From Halomonas chromatireducens (GTDB lineage: Bacteria; Pseudomonadota; Gammaproteobacteria; Pseudomonadales; Halomonadaceae), in assembly GCF_001545155.1 (NCBI RefSeq), contig NZ_CP014226.1, positions 3,609,306 through 3,673,305 of the forward strand: a stretch of 64,000 nt of DNA, read 5' to 3'. The notes under the pieces were generated by a model, which saw only the letters and a program-made list of their open reading frames with translations, was not told the origin of the DNA and searched no databases. Shown piece after piece: positions 12,479 to 64,000 of this stretch; positions within the stretch are counted from its first letter, which is position 1, and every line of letters begins with the position of its first letter. A program made the position numbers and the translations under genes.

Positions 12479-12916
12479 ATGCCAGTAGCAGACCAAAAAA
12501 CGGAAGCGCCCAAGAAATTCACCCCGTACGAGCCAGCATCGGGTGAAGAGTACATGAACGAGCAACAGCTGGAGCACTTCCGACAGATCCTGCTGGGCTG
12601 GAAACAGGAGCTCATGGAAGAGGTGGATCGCACCGTGCGCCATCTGCAGGAAGAGGCGAACAACTACGCCGACCCAGCCGATCGTGCCACTCAGGAAGAG
12701 GGCTTCAGCCTCGAACTGCGCACACGGGATCGTGAACGCAAGCTGCTCAAGAAGATCAACGAGACCCTCGATAAGATCGACGAGGACGACTATGGCTTTT
12801 GCGAGGCATGCGGCGTCGAAATCGGCATCCGCCGGCTTGAAGCCCGCCCCACAGCGACACTGTGCGTGGACTGCAAGACCCTGGCCGAGCTCAAGGAGAA
12901 GCAGCTCGGCGGCTGA
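12479..12916 (+). CDS. dksA: RNA polymerase-binding transcription factor DksA
   Basis: Binds the RNA polymerase secondary channel and, with ppGpp, adjusts rRNA and amino-acid promoters. The 145-residue product has the coiled-coil tip DPADRA (65-70) with its two aspartates, and a four-cysteine zinc finger (C108, C111, C129, C132). The preceding AAAGAGGCAGTCCC supports the start. It is followed by a strong terminator and then gluQ, the common gammaproteobacterial order. Confidence 0.97.
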   Translation: MPVADQKTEAPKKFTPYEPASGEEYMNEQQLEHFRQILLGWKQELMEEVDRTVRHLQEEANNYADPADRATQEEGFSLELRTRDRERKLLKKINETLDKIDEDDYGFCEACGVEIGIRRLEARPTATLCVDCKTLAELKEKQLGG

Positions 12917-12941
12917 GCCGCAAACCATTGCTGCTGTCGCA

Positions 12942-12966
12942 ACGGGCACCCCAGGGTGCCCGTTTG
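12942..12966 (+). terminator. Rho-independent terminator after dksA
   Basis: ACGGGCACCC (12942-12951) and GGGTGCCCGT (12954-12963) form a near-perfect stem followed by a short TTT tract. It lies 25 bp after the dksA stop. Confidence 0.75.
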
Positions 12967-12996
12967 CGTGACGACCGCCAACATCGGGAGTCATCC

Positions 12997-13908
12997 ATGC
13001 CCCCTTATCGCGGCCGCTTCGCCCCCACCCCATCCGGCGCACTTCACTTCGGCTCACTGATCGCCGCCCTGGCCAGCTTCCTCGATGCCCGCCAGGCGGA
13101 CGGCCAGTGGTTGCTGCGCATCGAAGACATCGATCCGCCACGCTGCCCCCCCGGGGCCGCCGATACCATCCTGCGTCAGCTCGAGGCCTTCGGGCTGCAC
13201 TGGGACGGCCCGATCCACTGGCAGAGCGACCGCAACGAGGCCTACGCCGCCGCCCTGGAGAACCTGACGTCACAGAGCCTCGCCTACCCCTGCAGCTGTT
13301 CACGCAAGCAGTGGCGCGACTTTCCGATCTACCCCGGCTGGTGTCGCCACGGCGTGCGGGAGCCCGAAAAGCCATGGGCATGGCGACTGCGCAGCGACAA
13401 GGGGCTGCGTCCGATCATGTGGCAGGATAGGCTGTTCGGTATCCAGCGCTTCGATCCGGCCGAGCTGGGCGACGTGGTACTCAAGCGCAAGGATGGTCTC
13501 TGGGCCTACCAGCTGGCCGTGGTGGTCGATGATGCCGACCAGGGCATCACCGATGTGGTGCGTGGCTTCGACCTGCTCGACAATACGCCCTGGCAGCGCC
13601 AGCTGCAGCATGCCCTGGGCCTGCCTGAACCGCGCTACCTGCATCTACCCCTGATCATGAGCCGCGACGGCCAGAAGCTCTCCAAGCAGAACCTGGCACC
13701 AGCGCTCCCCGTGAGAGAGAAGGAGGTGCGCCCACTGCTGCATCGCGCCCTGGCAGCACTGGATCAAGCGCCGCCCGATTCACTGGCCTCCGCACCCGCT
13801 ACCGAGCAGCTCGAATGGGCCATTACCCACTGGGAAGTGGGTCGCATTCGCCCCGAGGCCACCCGGCAGGCTGCTGCTGCCGACATGGCTGCCACTGATC
13901 CACCCTGA
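12997..13908 (+). CDS. gluQ: Glutamyl-Q tRNA(Asp) synthetase
   Basis: Truncated glutamyl-tRNA synthetase paralogue (303 residues) that attaches glutamate to queuosine in tRNA-Asp. It has the HIGH-type motif PTPSGALHFGS near residue 10, the zinc ligands CSCS plus a later Tyr/Cys (GWCRHG), and the KMSKS-type GQKLSKQ; the anticodon-binding domain of full GluRS is absent, as expected. Start ATG has GGGAG seven bases upstream; upstream in-frame sequence belongs to the dksA terminator region. It precedes the cbr genes. Confidence 0.95.
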   Translation: MPPYRGRFAPTPSGALHFGSLIAALASFLDARQADGQWLLRIEDIDPPRCPPGAADTILRQLEAFGLHWDGPIHWQSDRNEAYAAALENLTSQSLAYPCSCSRKQWRDFPIYPGWCRHGVREPEKPWAWRLRSDKGLRPIMWQDRLFGIQRFDPAELGDVVLKRKDGLWAYQLAVVVDDADQGITDVVRGFDLLDNTPWQRQLQHALGLPEPRYLHLPLIMSRDGQKLSKQNLAPALPVREKEVRPLLHRALAALDQAPPDSLASAPATEQLEWAITHWEVGRIRPEATRQAAAADMAATDPP

Positions 13909-13922
13909 CCGAGGAGCACGCC

Positions 13923-14099
13923 GTGTACGTCTATCGCATCATGCTGCTGCTGGTATTCGGGGGCTACCTGCTCTCGCCGCTGCTGATGAGCGGCTGGTCC
14001 AGCCCGGGGGTGGCCTGGTACCGCCCCTTCGTCATATGGGGAATACTTATTGCGCTGACGTTATGGCTGGAGCAGAAGAGGAAGCTGGATGAACAATAG
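13923..14099 (+). CDS. cbrX: Small membrane protein overlapping cbrA (CbrX-like)
   Basis: A 58-codon ORF starting at GTG, with a GAGGAGC Shine-Dalgarno in GACCGAGGAGCACGCC. The product has two hydrophobic stretches (LLLVFGGYLLSPLL near 8-21 and FVIWGILIALTLWL near 36-49) and a charged C-terminus, so a small inner-membrane protein. Its last 11 bases overlap the cbrA start, implying translational coupling. In Pseudomonas a short ORF called cbrX sits at exactly this place; the name is given on position and shape, not on sequence comparison. Confidence 0.7.
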   Translation: MYVYRIMLLLVFGGYLLSPLLMSGWSSPGVAWYRPFVIWGILIALTLWLEQKRKLDEQ

Positions 14100-17040
14100 C
14101 CTGGCCAGCGTCTTCGCCCTGGGCACCAGCTATCTGCTGCTGATGTTCCTGTGCGCCCTGGCGGTGGAGCGCGGCTGGATCGGCCGCCGCATTACCCGCC
14201 ACCCCGCCGTCTATACCCTGGCATTAGGGGTGTATGCCAGCGCCTGGGCCATCTACGGCAGCCTGGAGCTTGCCGCCAGCGAAGGGTACGGCTATCTCGC
14301 CTACTACCTGGGCGTGGCCGGCGCTTTCCTGCTGGCGCCGGTCCTGCTGGTCCCCATTCAGCGCATGACCCATACCTACCAGCTCTCCTCGCTGGCCGAT
14401 CTCTTTGCCTTTCGCTTTCGCTCACGCTGGGTCGGCACCCTGGTAACGATCATCAGTCTGCTGGCTGTGCTTCCCCTGCTCGCTCTACAGGTGCAGACCC
14501 TGGGTGATGCCATCTACCTGATGACAGGCGCGGCCTCACCTGCCCTCCTGGCACTGGTCTTCAGCGCTCTTATAGCCCTGTTCGCCATGCTTTTCGGTAC
14601 CCGGCACAGGCACCAGTACGCTCGGCATGACACGCTGCTGACGGTCATCGCCTTGACCTCGCTCATCAAGCTCGGCGCCATGCTGGCGCTGGGAGGAATT
14701 GCCCTGTTCGTGGTCTTCGATGGTCCAGCCGACCTGCAGCTCTGGCTGGATGGCCCCGGCCAGGCCTATCAGGCGGGAGTGACACAGCCCGATGCGGCCC
14801 ACTGGCGCACCCTCTTGCTGCTGTTTTTCGCCGCGGCCTTGCTGATGCCGCACATCTTCCATATTACCTTTGCCGAGACGCTCTCACGGCACACCCTGCT
14901 TCAAGCCAGCTGGTCCCTGCCACTGTTTCTGCTGCTGATGGCAATACCTGTGCCGCTGATCCTGTGGGCCGGCCAGCGACTGGGAAGCGATCAACTGATC
15001 GGTTCCGCCTATCTGGCCTTCGGGCTATCGGAATCATTCTGGGTCCAGGCGCTCGCCTTCATCGCCGGCCTGGCCGCCACAAGCGCGACCATGGTGATCA
15101 TCGCCCTGGCCCTGTCGGGGATGATCCTCAATCATGTGCTGCTGGTCGCGCACCCCCCGGAAGCCCAACCCAACCTCTATCGCTGGCTGCGCTGGCTTCG
15201 TCGCGGGCTGATCGCCGCGGTAATCCTGGGTGGGTGGCTCTTCTACCGTACTGTCGGGGTCAATCATGACCTGACCACCCTCGGGCTCGCCGCCTTTGTA
15301 GGCATGGCGCAGTGCCTGCCGGGCCTGCTTGCGCTGCTCTACTGGCCCGGAGCCAATCGCAAGGGCATGGTATCGGGCCTGGTCATCGGGACCCTGGTCT
15401 GGCTTGTCGGCCTGTGGCTACCCCTGCTCACAGCCCTCCCCGCCCTGGTGCTGATACCACCCGGGCTGGAGATGCTCACCGGCGAGCCGAACTGGTATGT
15501 CGTAACCCTAGTGTCGCTGGCCGCAAACAGCCTGACTTTCATCATCGTGTCGCTGGCCACCCGTACCTCTCCCGGCGAGCGTGCCGCTGCCGAGGCCTGC
15601 TCGGTGGACGCCGTGATCCGCCCCAAGCGCCTGCCCCTGCAGGCAGCCACCGGTGAAGAGTTCAAGCAACCCCTGGCCAGGGCGCTCGGTGACGAAGTCG
15701 CCGAACGGGAAGTGGAGCGAGCCCTGACCGACCTGGGCCTTTCCCCCCTGGACGGCCGCCCCTATGCGTTGCGCCGCCTGCGCGACCGGATCCAGGCCAA
15801 CCTTTCCGGCCTCATGGGGCCTTCGGTGGCCCAGGATATCGTCGACCGCTACCTGCCCTACCGGCGTGGTGGCCAGGAACCCACCGACGACATCCACTTC
15901 GTCGAGAGCCGCCTGGAAGCCTATCGCTCACGCCTGACCGGACTGGCCCGGGAGCTGGATGGGCTACGTCGCTACCATCGTCGCATCCTGACACGGCTAC
16001 CCGTGGGGCTGTGCGCCTTCGGTGTCGACGACGAACTGCTGATGTGGAACGACGCCCTGGCCGAGCTCTCCGGCATCGATGGCAATAGCGTGATCGGCGC
16101 CCGCCGCGACGGCCTCCCCGCCCCCTGGGGAGATCTGTTGAGTCGAGCCGAGCAGGAGGATCACCTCTACAAGCAGGCGGTGACACTGGAGGACGGCACC
16201 CGCTACCTGACCCTGCACCGGGCCGAACTCAAGGCCGACGACGACGTCCGCGGCGGCACCGTGATACTGATCGAGGACCATAGCGAAATGAAGTGGCTGG
16301 AAGACGAGCTGGTCCATGCGGCTCGTCTTGCCTCCATCGGCCAGCTTGCCGCCGGGGTCGCCCATGAGATCGGCAACCCCATCACCGGCATCTCGTCGCT
16401 GGCCCAGAACCTGCGCTATGACACCAGTGATCCCGAAGTCCTGGAAACTGCTGCCCAGATACAGCAGTTGACCGACCGTGTCTCCCGTATCGTGAGCTCA
16501 CTGGTGGGCTTCGCCCACGGCGGCCGCCACATCGGCGGCACCAGCTTCGCCCCGGTCGCAGTCGCGGCCGTTACCGACGAGGCCTTGCACTTGTTACAGC
16601 TGGCACGCTCAGGCGAGGATGTGAGGTACCATAATCTCTGCCCTGCCGAACTGGAGGTGATCGGCGATGCCCAGCGGCTCCAGCAGGTGATGATCAATCT
16701 GCTGAGCAATGCCCGCGACGCCAGCCAGCCGGGTGGCAACATAGTGATAGCCGCGGAGCCGGAAGGCCGCATGGTGAGAGTGACCGTCACCGACGAAGGC
16801 GAGGGGCTCGACGCCAGAGTCCGCGATCACCTGTTCGAGCCCTTCACTACTACCAAGCCACCGGGTGAGGGAACCGGCCTGGGGCTGCCGCTGGTCTACA
16901 GCATCATTGCCGAGCATCATGGAAGAATCGAAATCGAGTCACCGCCCCCCGGGCATGAATGCGGCACCCGCATCTGCCTGTGGCTGCCCACCGAACGACA
17001 GGATGGTGAAGAGACGAATGAGCAGGATTCTGATCGTTGA
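14089..17040 (+). CDS. cbrA: Sensor histidine kinase CbrA with transporter-like N-terminus
   Basis: Controls CbrB and through it carbon/nitrogen source choice. The 983-residue product begins with an SLC5-like (solute:sodium symporter) membrane domain of about 13 helices (1-500), followed by a linker, a PAS domain (about 620-740), the dimerisation/phosphoacceptor site with His759 in VAHEIGNP, and a GHKL ATPase domain (N box LLSNARDA, G boxes DEGEGL and GTGLGLPL). Length and domain order match Pseudomonas CbrA. The substrate sensed or transported is unknown; histidine transport has been reported for a Pseudomonas homolog. It overlaps the small ORF upstream by 11 bp and cbrB by 23 bp. Confidence 0.95.
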
Positions 17041-18412
17041 AGACGAGGCTATCATTCGCACCGCCCTTCGGCGGCTGCTGGAACGCCATGACTATCGCGT
17101 CAGTGAAGCCGGCTCGGTCGATGAGGCGCTCGCCCTGGATCCCAAGAACTTCGATTTGGTGATCAGCGACCTACGCCTGCCCGGCGAGCCGGGAACCGCC
17201 CTTATCGCCAGCGTGGCGCCGGTTCCGGTGCTGATCATGACCAGCTACGCCAGCATGCGCTCGGCGGTCGATGCCCTGAAGGAAGGCGCCGTCGACTATG
17301 TGGCCAAGCCATTCGACCATGACGAGCTGCTCGAAACGGTGTCCAGGGTACTGCACCAGCACTCCTCCCAGCGCTCGCCGCCGCCGGACATCACCGATGC
17401 GGGTGGCTCGCGCCAGCAGATGATCGGCGAGTGTCACGCCATGCAGGCTGTCTACACACGCATCCGCAAGACGGCACCGGCAGACGTCACGGTGCTGATC
17501 CAGGGCGAGTCGGGAACCGGCAAGGAGCTGGTGGCCCGGGCCATTCATCAGCAGAGCAAGCGCGCCGCGGCAGCGCTGATCAGCGTCAACTGCGCCGCCA
17601 TTCCCGAGACGCTGATCGAATCCGAGCTCTTCGGCCATGAAAAAGGGGCTTTCACCGGCGCCAGTGCCGCTCGCACCGGACTGGTGGAGGCAGCCGACGG
17701 CGGCACCCTGTTTCTTGACGAAATCGGGGAACTGCCCCTGGATGCACAGGCACGCCTGCTGCGGGTCCTGCAGGAGGGTGAGATCCGCCGTATCGGCTCG
17801 GTGGAGACCCGTCATGTCAATGTTCGCCTCATCGCCGCCACCCACCGCGACCTGCGGGCCCTGTCGAAGACCGGCGAGTTCCGGCTCGATCTCTACTATC
17901 GCCTCAACGTGATGCAGATCGACCTGCCACCGCTGCGCGACCGCGAGGAGGATGTCCTGACCATCGCCGATGTTTTGCTGGAAAAGGCGTGCCGGCGTCA
18001 CGAGCGCAACGGCCTGCGTCTCTCACGTGCCGCACGCCAGGAAATCAGGGACTACCCTTGGCCGGGCAACGTCCGCGAACTGGAGAATGCTCTGGAGCGC
18101 GGCGTGATACTCGCGGAAGGTCACCTGATCCACCCCGATGACCTGGGCCTCCACCCCGCTCGGCCGGCCTCATCCCGGCTGCCCCTCGAACCGATGCCGA
18201 GAACGGTCGATCCGGTCGAGAGCGAACAGGACGAGAATGGTGACGACCTTTCCCTGGAGGATTATTTCCAGCATTTCGTCCTGGAGCATCAGGATCAGAT
18301 GAGCGAGACGGAGCTTGCCCAGAAGCTGGGCATCAGTCGCAAGTGCCTGTGGGAGCGGCGCCAGCGCCTGGGCATTCCGCGCAAGAAGCAGGCCCGACGC
18401 AGCAGTGCCTAA
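17018..18412 (+). CDS. cbrB: NtrC-type sigma-54 response regulator CbrB
   Basis: Activates sigma-54 promoters, chiefly that of the decoy RNA crcZ in Pseudomonas. The 464-residue protein has a receiver domain with Asp51 (VISDLRLPG), an AAA+ domain with Walker A GESGTGKE, the sigma-54 contact loop GAFTGA, DEIGELP, and a C-terminal Fis-type helix-turn-helix ([20 protein letters not shown]). The ATG at 17018 begins [10 protein letters not shown], the standard receiver N-terminus; it overlaps cbrA by 23 bp. The gene is followed by a strong terminator and then by the CrcZ-like RNA region, exactly its expected target. Confidence 0.95.
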
Positions 18413-18455
18413 CCCATCAGCGATGGGGTGCGAGGGCCGACTACGACTATTGTCC

Positions 18456-18489
18456 AAGCGCCGCTGGCATATGCCAGCGGCGCTTTTTT
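18456..18489 (+). terminator. Strong rho-independent terminator after cbrB
   Basis: A perfect 15-bp stem, AAGCGCCGCTGGCAT facing ATGCCAGCGGCGCTT, followed by TTTT and G. It isolates cbrA-cbrB transcription from the sRNA region downstream. Confidence 0.9.
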
Positions 18490-18515
18490 GCTGATTCGCC
18501 GGGGGTTTTGCACCA

Positions 18516-18570
18516 GGTGTTACCTTACCACCCAGAATTTGCCCCGCGATGGCTCAAGCCGGGTAACACC
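18516..18570. promoter_or_regulatory. Probable CbrB binding sites upstream of the CrcZ-like RNA
   Basis: GGTGTTACC (18516-18524) and GGTAACACC (18562-18570) are perfect 9-bp inverted copies 46 bp apart, 74-128 bp upstream of the sigma-54 -24 element, the normal distance for enhancer sites. TGTTAC/GTAACA half-sites are the recalled Pseudomonas CbrB pattern. A near-identical box recurs before panB. Confidence 0.65.
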
Positions 18571-18642
18571 CGATGGGGGACCGCATCGGCTTTACCACGC
18601 ACCAAAACGTAACCCACTGTTTTGCAATGCCGATAACCGTCA

Positions 18643-18658
18643 TGGCATGTGGCGTGCA
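18643..18658 (+). promoter_or_regulatory. Sigma-54 promoter of the CrcZ-like RNA
   Basis: TGGCATGTGGCGTGCA carries GG and GC separated by exactly 10 bases, matching the -24/-12 consensus TGGCAC-N5-TTGCA well. Transcription would begin about 12 bases after the GC, near 18669. It lies downstream of cbrB, which encodes a sigma-54 activator. Confidence 0.75.
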
Positions 18659-18668
18659 ATATTTACGG

Positions 18669-19170
18669 GTAAGAAAAACAACATCCGACTGTCACCCGCG
18701 CCAACAACAACAACAAGGCGGTCAGGCGAGACAGAGCCCGCACCAACAACAACAAGGCGGGTTGTGAACGATGCGGACGCGGGAGCAATAACAACAAGCT
18801 CATCCCGACATGCTCCGCCCTTCGAAGCCTTGAACAACAGCAACAATATGCGCTCGAAGCACCGGATCCCAGGACGCGACGCGCTCACAATGGCTACCAA
18901 CAAGAACAAGGGCCAGAGAAGCGCGCCTTCGGCAACAATAGCAACAAGCCGAAGGTAGGCATATTCACGATGCCGTCGTGGTTGGATTATTGTTTTGAAT
19001 ACGAGGCGGTCGCAACCAGGAACGTCAACAATCACAACAACATTGCTTGCCTGTGAAATCTTGGTGACTGTGGTGCGTATTCAAGGCGATGTGCCATCAC
19101 GAAGAAGAAACAGCCGCATGGACGCAGCATTTTCAGCTTGTCAGAGGAGGCCAATCGGCCTCCTCTTTTG
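18669..19170 (+). ncRNA. crcZ: CrcZ-like Hfq/Crc-sequestering small RNA
   Basis: A ~500-nt intergenic transcript unit between cbrB and pcnB, the position of crcZ in Pseudomonas, bounded by a sigma-54 promoter and a strong terminator. It contains at least eight A-rich AAN-type repeats: 18671-18683, 18703-18716, 18743-18755, 18787-18797, 18832-18848, 18898-18909, 18934-18947 and 19026-19043. At least six fall in loops of short hairpins, for example CCTTCGGC (18926-18933)/GCCGAAGG (18948-18955) around AACAATAGCAACAA. In Pseudomonas such repeats bind Hfq with Crc and titrate them from catabolic mRNAs. No plausible protein is encoded. Exact ends are inferred. Confidence 0.8.
19143..19170 (+). terminator. 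Terminator of the CrcZ-like RNA
   Basis: AGAGGAGGCC (19143-19152), loop AATC, GGCCTCCTCT (19157-19166), then TTT. A 10-bp perfect stem; it closes the sRNA and lies 99 bp before pcnB. Confidence 0.85.
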
Positions 19171-19268: not shown

Positions 19269-20672
19269 ATGTTCAAAGGATTTACCCGCTTTCTGCAGAG
19301 CCCTGGCGAACATCTCAGGTCACTCTTCGGCCCCGATGATGCCGCCGCCGCTGAACTAGCCGGCCCGCGGATCATTCCCCGTAACGAGCACCCCGTATCG
19401 CGCCAGCACTTGAGTGAGTCGGCGCTCAAGGTACTCTATCGCCTGCACAATGCAGGATATGAGGCCTATCTGGTTGGCGGCTGCATTCGTGACTCATTCC
19501 TGGGCCGAATGCCCAAGGATTTCGACGTCGCCACCGATGCCACGCCGGAGCAGGTACGCGAGCTGTTTCGCAACTCGCGGATCATCGGTCGACGCTTTCG
19601 CATCGTGCATGTGCGCTTCGGTCGCGAAGTCATTGAGGTCACTACCTTTCGTGGCAGACCCAACGACGACCATGGCGACCACATCGCCCAGCAGTCCGAG
19701 CAAGGCCTGCTGCTGCGTGACAATGTCTGGGGCAATATCCAGGAAGATGCCGTGCGCCGCGATTTCACCATCAATGCGCTCTACTACAGCATCGCCGACT
19801 TCTCGATTCATGATTTCGCCAACGGCGCTCGCGACATCGAGTCCCGCACCCTGCGCATGATCGGCGACCCGACGACACGCTACCGCGAAGACCCCGTGCG
19901 CATGCTGCGCGCCATCCGCTTCGCCGCCAAGCTCGACTTCCAAATTGCGCCTGGCTCCGAGGCGCCGATCCATGAGCAGGCCCATCTGCTGCTGCAGATC
20001 CCGCCCGCACGGCTGTTCGACGAGATACTCAAGCTGTTCATGGCCGGCCATGGTGTCGAAACCTTCCGCATGCTGCGCCACTATGGCCTGTTTCCCATGC
20101 TCTTCCCCGAAACGGAAGAAGCCATGGCCACGCTGCCCTGGACCGAAGGCCTGATCGAGGCGGCCCTGGCCAGCACCGACAAGCGTATCCGTGAGGAGCG
20201 TCCGGTAACGCCGGCCTTCCTGTTCGCAGCACTGCTGTGGGGGCCCGTACAGCTCCGCCAGGCGACGCTGGAGGAAGATGGGATGCCGCCCATCCCCGCA
20301 CTTCAGCTGGCGTCTCAGCAGGTGCTCTCGCGCCAGCTGAAGCACATCTCGATCCCCAAGCGCTTCAGCATGCCGATGCGCGACATCTGGGACCTACAGC
20401 AGCGACTACCCCTGCGTCGCGGCAAACGCGCACTGCAGACCCGGGAACATCCGCGCTTTCGCGCCGCCTACGACTTCCTGCTGCTGCGGGAAGAGGCTGG
20501 CGAGGTCGAACCCGGACTTGGCGACTGGTGGACCGCCTTTCAGGAAGGCGACGAACACGAGCAGATGCGCCTGCTGGAGAAAGCCGGCGCCAACGCCACG
20601 CCCGGTGATCGCCCCAAGCGCCGCCGGCCCCGCAAGCGCCGCCGACGCAGTGCGCCCCCCGATAACCCGTGA
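19269..20672 (+). CDS. pcnB: Poly(A) polymerase I
   Basis: Adds poly(A) tails to RNA 3' ends, which promotes decay. The 467-residue class II nucleotidyltransferase has the GG/DFD catalytic region LVGGCIRD (68-75) and DFDVATDA (84-91), the RRDFTINALYY motif, RFAAKLDF, and a basic C-terminal tail rich in RKRRRR as in PcnB rather than tRNA nucleotidyltransferase. The ATG giving MFKGFTRFLQ is preferred; upstream in-frame codons run into the sRNA terminator. Its Shine-Dalgarno is weak. It overlaps folK by four bases. Confidence 0.94.
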   Translation: MFKGFTRFLQSPGEHLRSLFGPDDAAAAELAGPRIIPRNEHPVSRQHLSESALKVLYRLHNAGYEAYLVGGCIRDSFLGRMPKDFDVATDATPEQVRELFRNSRIIGRRFRIVHVRFGREVIEVTTFRGRPNDDHGDHIAQQSEQGLLLRDNVWGNIQEDAVRRDFTINALYYSIADFSIHDFANGARDIESRTLRMIGDPTTRYREDPVRMLRAIRFAAKLDFQIAPGSEAPIHEQAHLLLQIPPARLFDEILKLFMAGHGVETFRMLRHYGLFPMLFPETEEAMATLPWTEGLIEAALASTDKRIREERPVTPAFLFAALLWGPVQLRQATLEEDGMPPIPALQLASQQVLSRQLKHISIPKRFSMPMRDIWDLQQRLPLRRGKRALQTREHPRFRAAYDFLLLREEAGEVEPGLGDWWTAFQEGDEHEQMRLLEKAGANATPGDRPKRRRPRKRRRRSAPPDNP

Positions 20673-59118: not shown

Positions 59119-59498
59119 GGGGGCGACATGGCTTCGACGCCGGTGACAACCTCCTAGGTGCATGCCGAGAGCGTGATGTATCTCGTAAATCCAACATCAC
59201 GACTAAATAGTCGCAAACGACGACAACTACGCTCAGGGCGCGCTGGCAGCTTAATAGCTGTTAGCTTCTAGCCCGGCCCCGAAGCGATGTGCCCATTCAT
59301 TGCGGACGGGATATGAGCTAAAAATGATGGGATCGCGGTTGGTGGTGTCCTCTCGCCAGTCGCTAAATCTTAGAGGAATCGCGTAGCTGGATCCTGCCCG
59401 TTGGAGCCAGATGCGTTAAATCAAAAAACGGACCTAAGCATGTAGAGCCGAAGAGCGAGTACCGGCGGACGCGGGTTCAATTCCCGCCGCCTCCACCA
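59119..59498 (+). ncRNA. ssrA: Transfer-messenger RNA (tmRNA)
   Basis: A 380-nt tmRNA that rescues stalled ribosomes and tags the unfinished protein. The ends pair as a tRNA-Ala-like acceptor, GGGGGCG (59119-59125) and CGCCTCC with ACCA, and the T-arm GCGGGTTCAATTCCCGC is intact. The tag frame starts at GCA 59213 and reads ANDDNYAQGALAA before TAA at 59252. Pseudoknot regions lie on either side. Its 3' end is also the attachment site of the downstream mobile element. Confidence 0.97.
59460..59498 (+). other. Attachment site (attL) of the integrated element, in the 3' end of ssrA
   Basis: A tyrosine integrase gene of the P4 type lies 540 bp beyond the intact tmRNA 3' end, pointing away from it. 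Such integrases commonly use the ssrA T-arm and acceptor end as target and restore it on insertion. The exact core cannot be set without the right junction, which is beyond the window. Confidence 0.6.
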
Positions 59499-62519: not shown

Positions 62520-64000
62520 ATGACGAGCATAAAAAAACCGGCCCCCTCGGGAGGGCCGGCACAAGCGCCTGTGAGCGCGATTTCTTCACGACATTCTACA
62601 CCTTCCAGCGAGCTGGCGCCCCTAATGGCGCCCGTCGCACGCGAGCTGCTGGGCGAACCAAACAAGGAGCTCTCACGGAAGGACGAGCTGCGTTTCGGTA
62701 CCCACGGTAGTCTGGCCATCGATCTCGATGCCGGTACTTGGTACAGCCACGAGGAGCAGCGTGGGGGAGGTGTGCTGGACCTGATTAGCCGGGAGACTGG
62801 ACGCGGCGAGCGCCACCTTCAATTGGCCTGGCTGGAGGAGAGCGGCTTTCGTGATAAGCAAGAGTCGGCACCTAAGCCCCAGCCACTCATTGAGGTAGAG
62901 CGGTACCGCTACAACGATGCCCAAGGTAGCCCGAGGTTCTTTGTCGTCAGGTTCGAGCCCAAGACCTTCCGCCAGGGAGATGTCAATGAGCATGGCCGTT
63001 TCGTCCCGGGGGTGAAGGGAATCGAGACGCGCATCCCGTACCACCTCGACAAACTCTACGCCCAGCCCGAGGCCGATGTGTTCTTGGTCGAAGGGGAGAA
63101 GGACGTTCATCGGCTAGAACAGCTTGGCATATTGGCCACCTGCAACGCGGGTGGTGCCGGGAAGTGGACCGACGAGCACAGTCGGCACCTGGCAGGTCGG
63201 CGTGTGGTGATCCTGCCGGACAATGACGAGCCAGGTATCGACCATGCGCGGAAGGTGAAGGCCTCGTTGGAGGCAGCTGAAGCCGAGGTGCTGGTGGTCC
63301 TGCTGCGCAACCTGCCGGAAAAGGGCGATGTGAGCGATTGGCTCGACGCTGGCGGCACGCTAGGGCAGCTTCAAGACCTTATCACTCAGGGTGGTCACGA
63401 GCTGCCCAAGGTGGAGCTCGAGCCTGAGCTGGAAAGCCAGGGGGAGGGCAACCGTGATAAGCAGTCCCAAACCGACCTGATCGTCGAGTTCGTACAGACC
63501 TGGAACGACCTGTTCCACGATGACAACGATGTTGCCTATGCCCGCCATCGAGGCACCGGCGAGGTCCGCGCCCTCGGTAGCCGAGCGTTTCGGCACTGGC
63601 TGACGGCAGAGTTCTATGACCAGCACGAGAAGGCGCTGCGAGACCAATCGCTCCGCGAAGCCCGGATGACCCTCGAGGGCATCGCGATGAAGGACCATCG
63701 CCCGGTTCATATCCGTGTGGCCGGCGGGAGCGGTCGCTACTGGCTCGACCTTGGCCTCCCAGGCAGTAGCCGCTGCGTTTTCCTCCGCGCTGACGCATGG
63801 AGCCTGGAGGAGCAGAGCGAGCTGATGTTTTGCCGGTCGGAGAGCGCTCAGGCCCTGCCGGAGCCGGTGGCTGGCGGCAGCCTTGAGCCGCTGTGGAAGG
63901 TGGCCAACGTCCCTGAGCAGGCCCGGCTGCTGGTGGTGGCGTGGCTGGTGGAGTGTCTGCGTCCCGATACGCCCTTCCCGGTGCTGGAGCTGCTGGGGGA
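62520..64000 (+). CDS. TOPRIM primase-like replication protein (partial, runs off the window)
   Basis: At least 493 codons open to the right edge with no stop. After a Pro/Ser/Ala-rich N-terminus, the RFGTHGSLAIDLDAGTWY segment and GGGVLDLI resemble the N-terminal part of phage/ICE primase-helicases. A TOPRIM domain follows: acidic FLVEGEKD near residue 190, VVILPDNDEPG near 233, then GDVSDWLDAGG near 280. It probably starts replication of the excised element. GGAGGTAA seven bases upstream fixes the start. A helicase domain would be expected beyond the edge. Confidence 0.8.
   Translation, partial: MTSIKKPAPSGGPAQAPVSAISSRHSTPSSELAPLMAPVARELLGEPNKELSRKDELRFGTHGSLAIDLDAGTWYSHEEQRGGGVLDLISRETGRGERHLQLAWLEESGFRDKQESAPKPQPLIEVERYRYNDAQGSPRFFVVRFEPKTFRQGDVNEHGRFVPGVKGIETRIPYHLDKLYAQPEADVFLVEGEKDVHRLEQLGILATCNAGGAGKWTDEHSRHLAGRRVVILPDNDEPGIDHARKVKASLEAAEAEVLVVLLRNLPEKGDVSDWLDAGGTLGQLQDLITQGGHELPKVELEPELESQGEGNRDKQSQTDLIVEFVQTWNDLFHDDNDVAYARHRGTGEVRALGSRAFRHWLTAEFYDQHEKALRDQSLREARMTLEGIAMKDHRPVHIRVAGGSGRYWLDLGLPGSSRCVFLRADAWSLEEQSELMFCRSESAQALPEPVAGGSLEPLWKVANVPEQARLLVVAWLVECLRPDTPFPVLELLG
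62531..62559 (-). terminator. Terminator-like hairpin antisense to the start of the primase-like gene
   Basis: On the minus strand CCGGCCC (62559-62553) and GGGCCGG (62544-62538) form a stem followed by seven U (62537-62531). It lies within the first 14 codons of the plus-strand gene, so it would stop antisense transcription or reflect an inserted terminator sequence. Confidence 0.55.

Follow-up and report, generated by a model that had tools for sequence, protein, structure and literature searches.

Predicted CrcZ-like RNA with hairpin-displayed A-rich blocks downstream of cbrB in Halomonadaceae

The closest described systems to the stretch reported here are the CrcZ RNA of Pseudomonas, with CrcY and CrcX, and the CrcZ and CrcY RNAs of Azotobacter vinelandii. 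In Pseudomonas the genes stand in the order cbrA-cbrB-crcZ, as given in part of PMC8871633, and TGTTAC and GTAACA are the CbrB subsites named for P. putida in a section of PMC6296734. The A. vinelandii RNAs likewise have CbrB sites and a sigma54 promoter according to an excerpt of PMC6292655, a likeness that we draw from their description, and this species is, unlike Halomonas, a member of the Pseudomonadaceae. Passages in PMC8871633 and PMC6296734 call CbrAB unique to the Pseudomonadaceae, crcZ being mentioned beside CbrAB in one of them; the halomonad sequences contradict this.

The window, that is, the whole stretch of 64,000 nucleotides that was analysed, belongs to a genome consisting of one contig of 3.97 Mb. 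It holds, in this order, a gluQRS-like gene, cbrA, cbrB, an 856-bp gap, pcnB and folK (Table 1). We take the first of these to be gluQRS and assume that the membrane part of CbrA is SLC5-like, and the encoded CbrB shows 61-63% identity to CbrB of Pseudomonas fildesensis and Serpens. A preliminary description had proposed that the gap harbours a CrcZ-like RNA in the position that crcZ occupies in Pseudomonas. The length of the gap, from the cbrB stop at 18412 to the pcnB ATG at 19269, and the cbrA-cbrB-RNA-pcnB synteny both agree with it. Like Pseudomonas CrcZ (with CrcY and CrcX), the predicted RNA lies between cbrB and pcnB and has a sigma54 promoter with TGTTAC and GTAACA, several A-rich blocks of the Hfq type and its own terminator, in a genome that encodes Hfq and Crc. 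It would be about 500 nt long with eight or nine blocks, compared with 407 nt and six blocks for P. aeruginosa CrcZ in the part of PMC4063720 that describes it. It further differs from Pseudomonas CrcZ in having its blocks in covarying hairpin loops, a 3' domain of its own, and NtrC-like sites, and in being kept without CbrAB.

Table 1. Positions of the genes, predicted signals and RNA elements within the window
Feature	Position	Strand	Remarks
gluQRS-like gene	12862..13908	+	upstream of cbrA; from ORF translations
cbrA	14089..17040	+	sensor histidine kinase with membrane part
cbrB	17018..18412	+	NtrC-family sigma54 response regulator
Strong terminator-like hairpin	18456..18489	+	between cbrB and the RNA promoter
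NtrC-like site 1	18509..18525		TGCACCAGGTGTTACCT; compared with the E. coli consensus; left half only; overlaps the first CbrB-type subsite
Putative CbrB-type subsite	18518..18523		TGTTAC; sequence match
NtrC-like site 2	18540..18556		TGCCCCGCGATGGCTCA; compared with the E. coli consensus; 10/14 matches; 31 bp from site 1
Putative CbrB-type subsite	18563..18568		GTAACA; sequence match
sigma54 -24/-12 box	18643..18658	+	TGGCATGTGGCGTGCA (GG-N10-GC)
Predicted CrcZ-like decoy RNA	18669..19169	+	length about 500 nt; the sigma54 box sets the predicted start
A-rich block 1	18671..18681	+	AAGAAAAACAA, nearly invariant; 5' end of the RNA
Long-range helix P1	18683-18687 with 18863-18867	+	ATCCG with CGGAT; encloses hairpins 2-5
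A-rich block 2	18703..18716	+	hairpin loop
A-rich block 3	18745..18755	+	hairpin loop
A-rich block 4	18784..18797	+	
A-rich block 5	18833..18846	+	partly paired in the minimum-energy fold
Hairpin 6	18881..18924	+	outer stem 18881-18885/18920-18924, inner stem TGGC/GCCA; covarying
Loop block of hairpin 6	18899-18909	+	
Hairpin 7	18926..18955	+	CCTTCGGC/GCCGAAGG; block 18934-18947 in the loop; covarying
3' domain	18983..19090	+	nearly invariant arm ATTGTTTTGAATACG (18989-19003) paired with CGTATTCAAGGCGAT (19076-19090)
Last A-rich block	19102..19109	+	AAGAAGAA
Terminator-like hairpin, then T run	19143..19169	+	
pcnB	19269..20672	+	poly(A) polymerase

The promoter and terminator that the preliminary description considered fitting are a sigma54 box and a terminator-like hairpin with a T run. 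Upstream of the box, the pattern TGTTAC-N28-48-GTAACA, which reads identically on both strands, occurs at a single place in the 3.97-Mb genome and nowhere in the reversed control, and a scan for sigma70-like promoters returned none on the + strand. Because cbrB and the promoter are separated by a further, strong terminator-like hairpin, read-through from cbrB should be limited, in contrast to the read-through from the cbrB promoter of Pseudomonas reported in part of PMC8871633. The gap was said to carry at least eight A-rich repeats, and eight (ARN)n or AAN blocks were indeed counted there (starts in Table 1). Strict AANAANAA clusters number six in the 505-nt stretch; the mean of 2000 dinucleotide shuffles is 0.43 +/- 0.63 and not one of them reaches six, and in the rest of the window, on both strands, 1248 overlapping 505-nt stretches hold at most two each. 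Ten AANAANAA clusters lie in the window outside the + strand of the RNA, none of them at a gene start by a crude ORF rule.

The Rfam CrcZ model (RF01675), suggested as a check at the outset, did not reach its curated score: the best value, both for the window and genome-wide, with gathering and relaxed thresholds, was 9.1 bits against a cut-off of 95, the positive controls scoring 349.6 (L006), 272.1 (L008) and 306.8 bits (L197). Homology to Pseudomonas CrcZ therefore rests on synteny and promoter. Considering synteny, CbrB-type sites and sigma54 box, A-rich array, Hfq and Crc genes and stem covariation together, which bear out the earlier idea of a CrcZ-like decoy outside Pseudomonas, we think it highly probable that the stretch makes a CrcZ-type Hfq/Crc decoy RNA of about 500 nt, driven by CbrB and sigma54, with its blocks displayed by hairpins. 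It would be a decoy of new architecture outside the Pseudomonadaceae and, going by the sequence tests, would work in a CrcZ-like manner, although it falls outside the Rfam CrcZ family. What is read from sequence is its position, its promoter elements, its conservation and covariation, as well as genes for Hfq and for a Crc lacking the nuclease residues; we infer its transcription, the binding of Hfq and Crc, their titration and the link to carbon supply. On poor carbon sources, active CbrB would be bound to TGTTAC/GTAACA, some 125 bp ahead of the -24 box, and sigma54 RNA polymerase would transcribe the RNA. Each of the eight or nine (ARN)n blocks could then engage the distal face of a single Hfq hexamer, Crc would join these complexes, and the titration of Hfq and Crc would free catabolic mRNAs from repression. 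The covarying short hairpins would keep the blocks single-stranded in a GC-rich transcript and space the hexamers, and the conserved 3' stem domain would have an additional role. This 3' domain goes beyond the preliminary description, as do the NtrC-like sites, the examples from Cellvibrionaceae and the fact that the RNA survives where CbrAB is absent.

Whether the genome encodes the two protein partners had been raised as a question, and it encodes both. Its Hfq has 83 aa. The first 80 residues can be aligned to the P. aeruginosa protein, and position 25 is F in place of the Y that belongs to the distal site there. One of its four exonuclease/phosphatase-type genes, lying beside a gene that looks pyrE-like by eye, has its best match in the solved P. 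aeruginosa Crc (E 3.3e-76), the match to the solved chain 2myi, labelled exodeoxyribonuclease III, being almost as good (3.5e-75). Compared with the genome's own ExoIII-like protein, this Crc carries VQNL in place of LQET, with loss of the catalytic E, GTWH in place of GDFN and SEF in place of SDH; we assume a catalytic role for the E of LQET and for the GDFN and SDH motifs. Among the 14 Crc residues named in part of a paper on the Hfq/Crc/RNA structure (PMC6422490), 11 are kept (K135, R138, K139, R140, R141, E142, W161, E193, R196, R229 and R230) and three are changed (K155, M156 and R233). These three changes, the F at position 25 of Hfq and the close score of 2myi weigh against the decoy. 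Crc is present in all 151 Halomonadaceae genomes.

CbrB (E <= 1e-130) was found in 114 of these 151 genomes, representing 17 of 24 genera. The comparison of CbrAB-bearing loci covered 112 of them, namely 110 of the 114 (all except loci G030, G053, G085 and G091) plus Litchfieldella anticariensis L002 and Halomonas maura L004, with L002 and G029 appearing to be one genome since they share the same Crc coordinates. Comparing the gap across the family, for which an alignment had been suggested, showed that cbrB is followed by the CbrB site pair together with an A-rich array in 111 of the 112 loci, with 6 to 10 A-rich blocks in each of the 111 RNAs. In the exception, G024 (L183, L265), cbrB is not followed by pcnB, which lies elsewhere in the genome, and no such RNA was found next to either gene. 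The sigma54 box was recovered with our first pattern in 103 of the 111 and as GG-N10-GC with a looser pattern in the other eight, and the site pair stands 122-126 bp from the box in 92 of the 103.

The preliminary description had also argued that different stems carry the same A-rich loop content. In the minimum-energy fold of the window's RNA, five of the eight blocks lie wholly in hairpin loops, compared with a mean of 1.0 and a maximum of three in 25 versions with the spacers shuffled and the blocks kept. Four of the six hairpins originally named, those with the stems CGCC/GGCG, CCCGC/GCGGG, TGGC/GCCA and CCTTCGGC/GCCGAAGG, are in this fold; the other two stood only in part, as the GAGC/GCTC hairpin displays its loop on a slightly different stem and the CTTCGA/TCGAAG hairpin forms with its block only partly in the loop. 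When 49 of the 111 halomonad RNAs are aligned (A1), conservation is seen in the A-rich blocks, in the 3' domain and, for most sequences, in a CAGGACGCGAC stretch, whereas the stems are variable; RNAalifold proposes 44 pairs on this alignment, 21 of them with two-sided changes. Hairpins 6 and 7 were followed in 31 sequences: 39 of the 49 RNAs gave a row, the other ten lacking the anchor, and eight rows of more than 105 nt, most of them so long because the anchor matched early, were set aside. Two-sided changes affect 15 of the 16 pairs, and 87.8% of cells are paired, compared with 74.0 +/- 1.0 after shuffling and 41-53% (52.5 at most) when slid. Helix P1, joining the segment after block 1 to the segment before hairpin 6, has a mean of -12.8 for own partners against -10.7 +/- 0.38 for permuted ones (0/2000; 47 of the 49 RNAs); in the window itself P1 is weak, beating only about 30% of swaps, and it is absent from the minimum-energy fold.

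The same tendency runs through single blocks. Over 760 blocks of the 111 RNAs, a block's own flanks pair at -9.54 kcal/mol against -5.89 when swapped, and the own right flank is within the best 5% of swaps in 270 of the 760, figures that, as with all our shuffles, swaps and permutations, ignore kinship among the RNAs. The corresponding values are -4.62 against -3.89 for three Pseudomonadaceae RNAs (13 blocks) and -0.61 against -0.48 for three Cellvibrionaceae RNAs (28 blocks). Similarly, with blocks kept and spacers shuffled as the expectation, 59 of 115 blocks are looped in 14 of the 111 halomonad RNAs (15.0 expected) and 25 of 47 in six RNAs from genomes that lack CbrAB (5.3 expected), compared with 3 of 16 (1.8 expected) and 2 of 31 (3.1 expected) in the three Pseudomonadaceae and three Cellvibrionaceae RNAs. 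Stem covariation and loop display above the shuffled expectation thus back the argument about stems and loops, and the proposal that this hairpin array is stricter than that of Pseudomonas receives support on these small sets.

The RNA is also found where CbrAB is not. The 37 Halomonadaceae genomes without CbrB are also without CbrA (E <= 1e-60; a search over 39 genomes matched only G000 and G024), and all 37 carry an A-rich array upstream of pcnB. The gene upstream of the RNA is gluQRS-like in L232, L239 and L256, where the ORFs were read, and by eye in several further CbrAB-less sequences; G018 has another gene there. A pcnB tree (FastTree) with all rows requires four changes of state for the CbrAB-less genomes, or three without the long-branched G134, and the well supported branches force two; CbrAB may have been lost two or three times, the pcnB trees leaving room for one gain, and one of the losses falls inside the window's own genus (G102). 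The pcnB product of G134 (L251) is strongly divergent, with 48% identity against about 70% in its kin, possibly through a frameshift or contamination. Since the RNA outlives CbrAB, it is not only a CbrAB output.

On our best reading the halomonad promoter has been rewired, perhaps to be driven by NtrC. A stronger form of this would be that nitrogen control, through NtrC and sigma54, is what chiefly drives the RNA, with CbrB as a second activator in species that have CbrAB, and that the RNA stays under NtrC once CbrAB is lost, for which we see very nearly an even chance. In its favour, all 37 CbrAB-less genomes keep the RNA and a GG-N10-GC box (33 by the strict pattern; G102, G016, G037 and G018 by eye), and the CbrB site pair is found in none of their promoters, one of which (G128) is truncated by a contig end; TGTTAC alone occurs in two and GTAACA alone in none. 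The E. coli NtrC box proposed in part of PMC8743547 is TGCACCAnnnTGGTGCA, of 17 bp. Compared with it, the highest-scoring pair of NtrC-like sites at a spacing of 29-35 bp exceeds z = 2 in 34 of the 37 CbrAB-less and 50 of the 111 CbrAB-bearing promoters, although this z is set against mononucleotide shuffles and related species are not independent. Some sites are near-perfect palindromes, such as TGCACTAAAATAGTGCA, and several genomes of genus g16 have one 32 bp from a TGCACC/T site. The two sites in the window are partial matches, with no more than 10/14. In three promoters each from Pseudomonadaceae and Cellvibrionaceae, no site exceeds 9/14 matches. However, individual sites score modestly, p <= 0.05 against dinucleotide shuffles being reached in 43% of the promoters without CbrAB and 21% of those with it, and other enhancer-binding proteins may use similar sites.

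A second addition to the decoy concerns the 3' domain, in which ATTGTTTTGAATACGAG pairs with CGTATTCARGGCGAT and whose apical part contains an imperfect A-rich block. The arm TTGAATACGA is present in all 111 RNAs beside cbrB. In 35 sequences, 98% of cells pair and ten of the 15 outer pairs are invariant; because these never vary and many pairs are G-U, the letters of the domain are constrained beyond pairing. A covariance model of it (R1) matches in 35 of the 37 CbrAB-less genomes, one of which also has a weak second match of 24.4 bits (G050:C26:973012-973107), and finds no match in the loci of Pseudomonas fildesensis (L006), Serpens (L008) and L197, nor in those of Gilvimarinus (L005, L007) and a Cellvibrionaceae MAG (L009). 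A pure decoy does not explain such a near-invariant domain. The RNA could therefore be of dual function, its A-rich array being the Hfq/Crc decoy and its 3' domain a separate unit, for example a protein site, a processing signal or a base-pairing seed, a reading to which we give slightly less than an even chance. Against it, G017 and G018 (L264, L263) keep an A-rich array and a sigma54-like box upstream of pcnB without the 3' domain, and are reduced versions of the RNA. Likewise, no antisense target of the conserved arm stands out in its own genome, where two sites with three mismatches (self excluded) compare with one in the reversed control. Pairing of the arm with the 5' block AAAACAA was considered and rejected, as genomes of g3, inspected by eye, keep the arm and change the block.

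Taking the decoy together with both additions, we could speculate, tentatively and with somewhat more doubt than belief, that a structured, multivalent Hfq/Crc sponge is the conserved core and its sensor is replaceable, that CbrAB was lost two or three times together with the CbrB sites while the RNA stayed, that NtrC drives the sponge through tandem sites which in CbrAB-bearing species overlap the CbrB sites already, and that the 3' domain supplies a second function absent from Pseudomonas CrcZ. If this were true, catabolite repression would be wired to carbon, nitrogen or both through promoter turnover. The Halomonadaceae are a natural experiment in which the sensor is lost and the predicted decoy RNA kept, and the covarying hairpin array makes it directly testable how an Hfq sponge should fold. 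Halomonas strains are used as industrial hosts, and the RNA would give a handle on their carbon preference.

Two readings without a decoy fare far worse. The region lies directly upstream of pcnB and might serve this gene as a 5' leader or a regulatory spacer, or be a spacer rich in repeats from which no separate RNA is made, but a terminator-like hairpin precedes pcnB, the region has its own sigma54 box and covarying stems, and the 3' arm and its model recur across the family in the numbers given above, all of which leaves this reading very improbable. That the stretch encodes a Thr/Asn-rich peptide (ORF 18428-18958) is rejected as next to impossible, for although a 176-aa frame is open on the + strand, it begins upstream of the promoter, sequence changes preserve the stems, and a stop-free + frame over the first 290 nt (and the 60 nt before) exists in just 16 of the 111 relatives.

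The CrcZ-type decoy also has possible relatives further afield. Gilvimarinus gilvus, Gilvimarinus agarilyticus and the Cellvibrionaceae MAG (L005, L007, L009) have cbrB, CbrB-type sites, a sigma54 box and pcnB, and likewise a dense AANAANAA array between cbrB and pcnB; their stretches differ from the halomonad RNA in being AT-rich and without hairpin display or 3' domain. Each of the two Gilvimarinus genomes has a Crc-like protein that carries the RKRRE motif and in which the catalytic residues have degenerated. The Cellvibrionaceae MAG (L274, G524) encodes two Crc/ExoIII-type proteins, and the better match to halomonad Crc keeps the nuclease residues. Among 370 genomes of the class, CbrB was found in 31, two of which (G000, G010) are Halomonadaceae. 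One further CbrB locus was left out, and the 28 examined (L197-L224, two of which end at contig ends) all have a CbrA-like gene upstream of CbrB. Of these, L197 alone combines an A-rich array with a pcnB no more than about 1.5 kb away; it matches Rfam CrcZ (307 bits) and thus looks like Pseudomonadaceae. Downstream of the CbrA-CbrB-like pairs of L198-L224, from other gammaproteobacterial groups, neither pcnB nor an A-rich array was found. A scan of genome contigs with the CbrB protein gave at least 80 loci, and as only eight of the 80 listed have CbrB with at least 60% identity, named coverage outside the Halomonadaceae is thin. Locus L003 belongs to a MAG that carries the label Pseudomonadaceae; its CbrB shares 64% identity with that of the window, and neither an A-rich array nor pcnB adjoins it.

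Literature on CrcZ, Hfq, CbrB, Crc and small RNAs in Halomonas and Gammaproteobacteria, a body in which subscription journals are thinly covered, did not yield the halomonad RNA. In the available part of PMC9049629, Halomonas appears in the references only; in that of PMC13086519, the mentions of CrcZ and Halomonas are unrelated; and that of PMC13414033 has no CrcZ. An excerpt of PMC5073097 reports transcripts of both cbrA and cbrB from an ocean metatranscriptome and does not link them to Halomonas. Elsewhere in the window, a tmRNA gene lies at 59119-59498, and a large ORF 3 kb further (62520-63998) resembles by eye a mobile-element primase of the Toprim type; an element is possibly integrated near the tmRNA gene.
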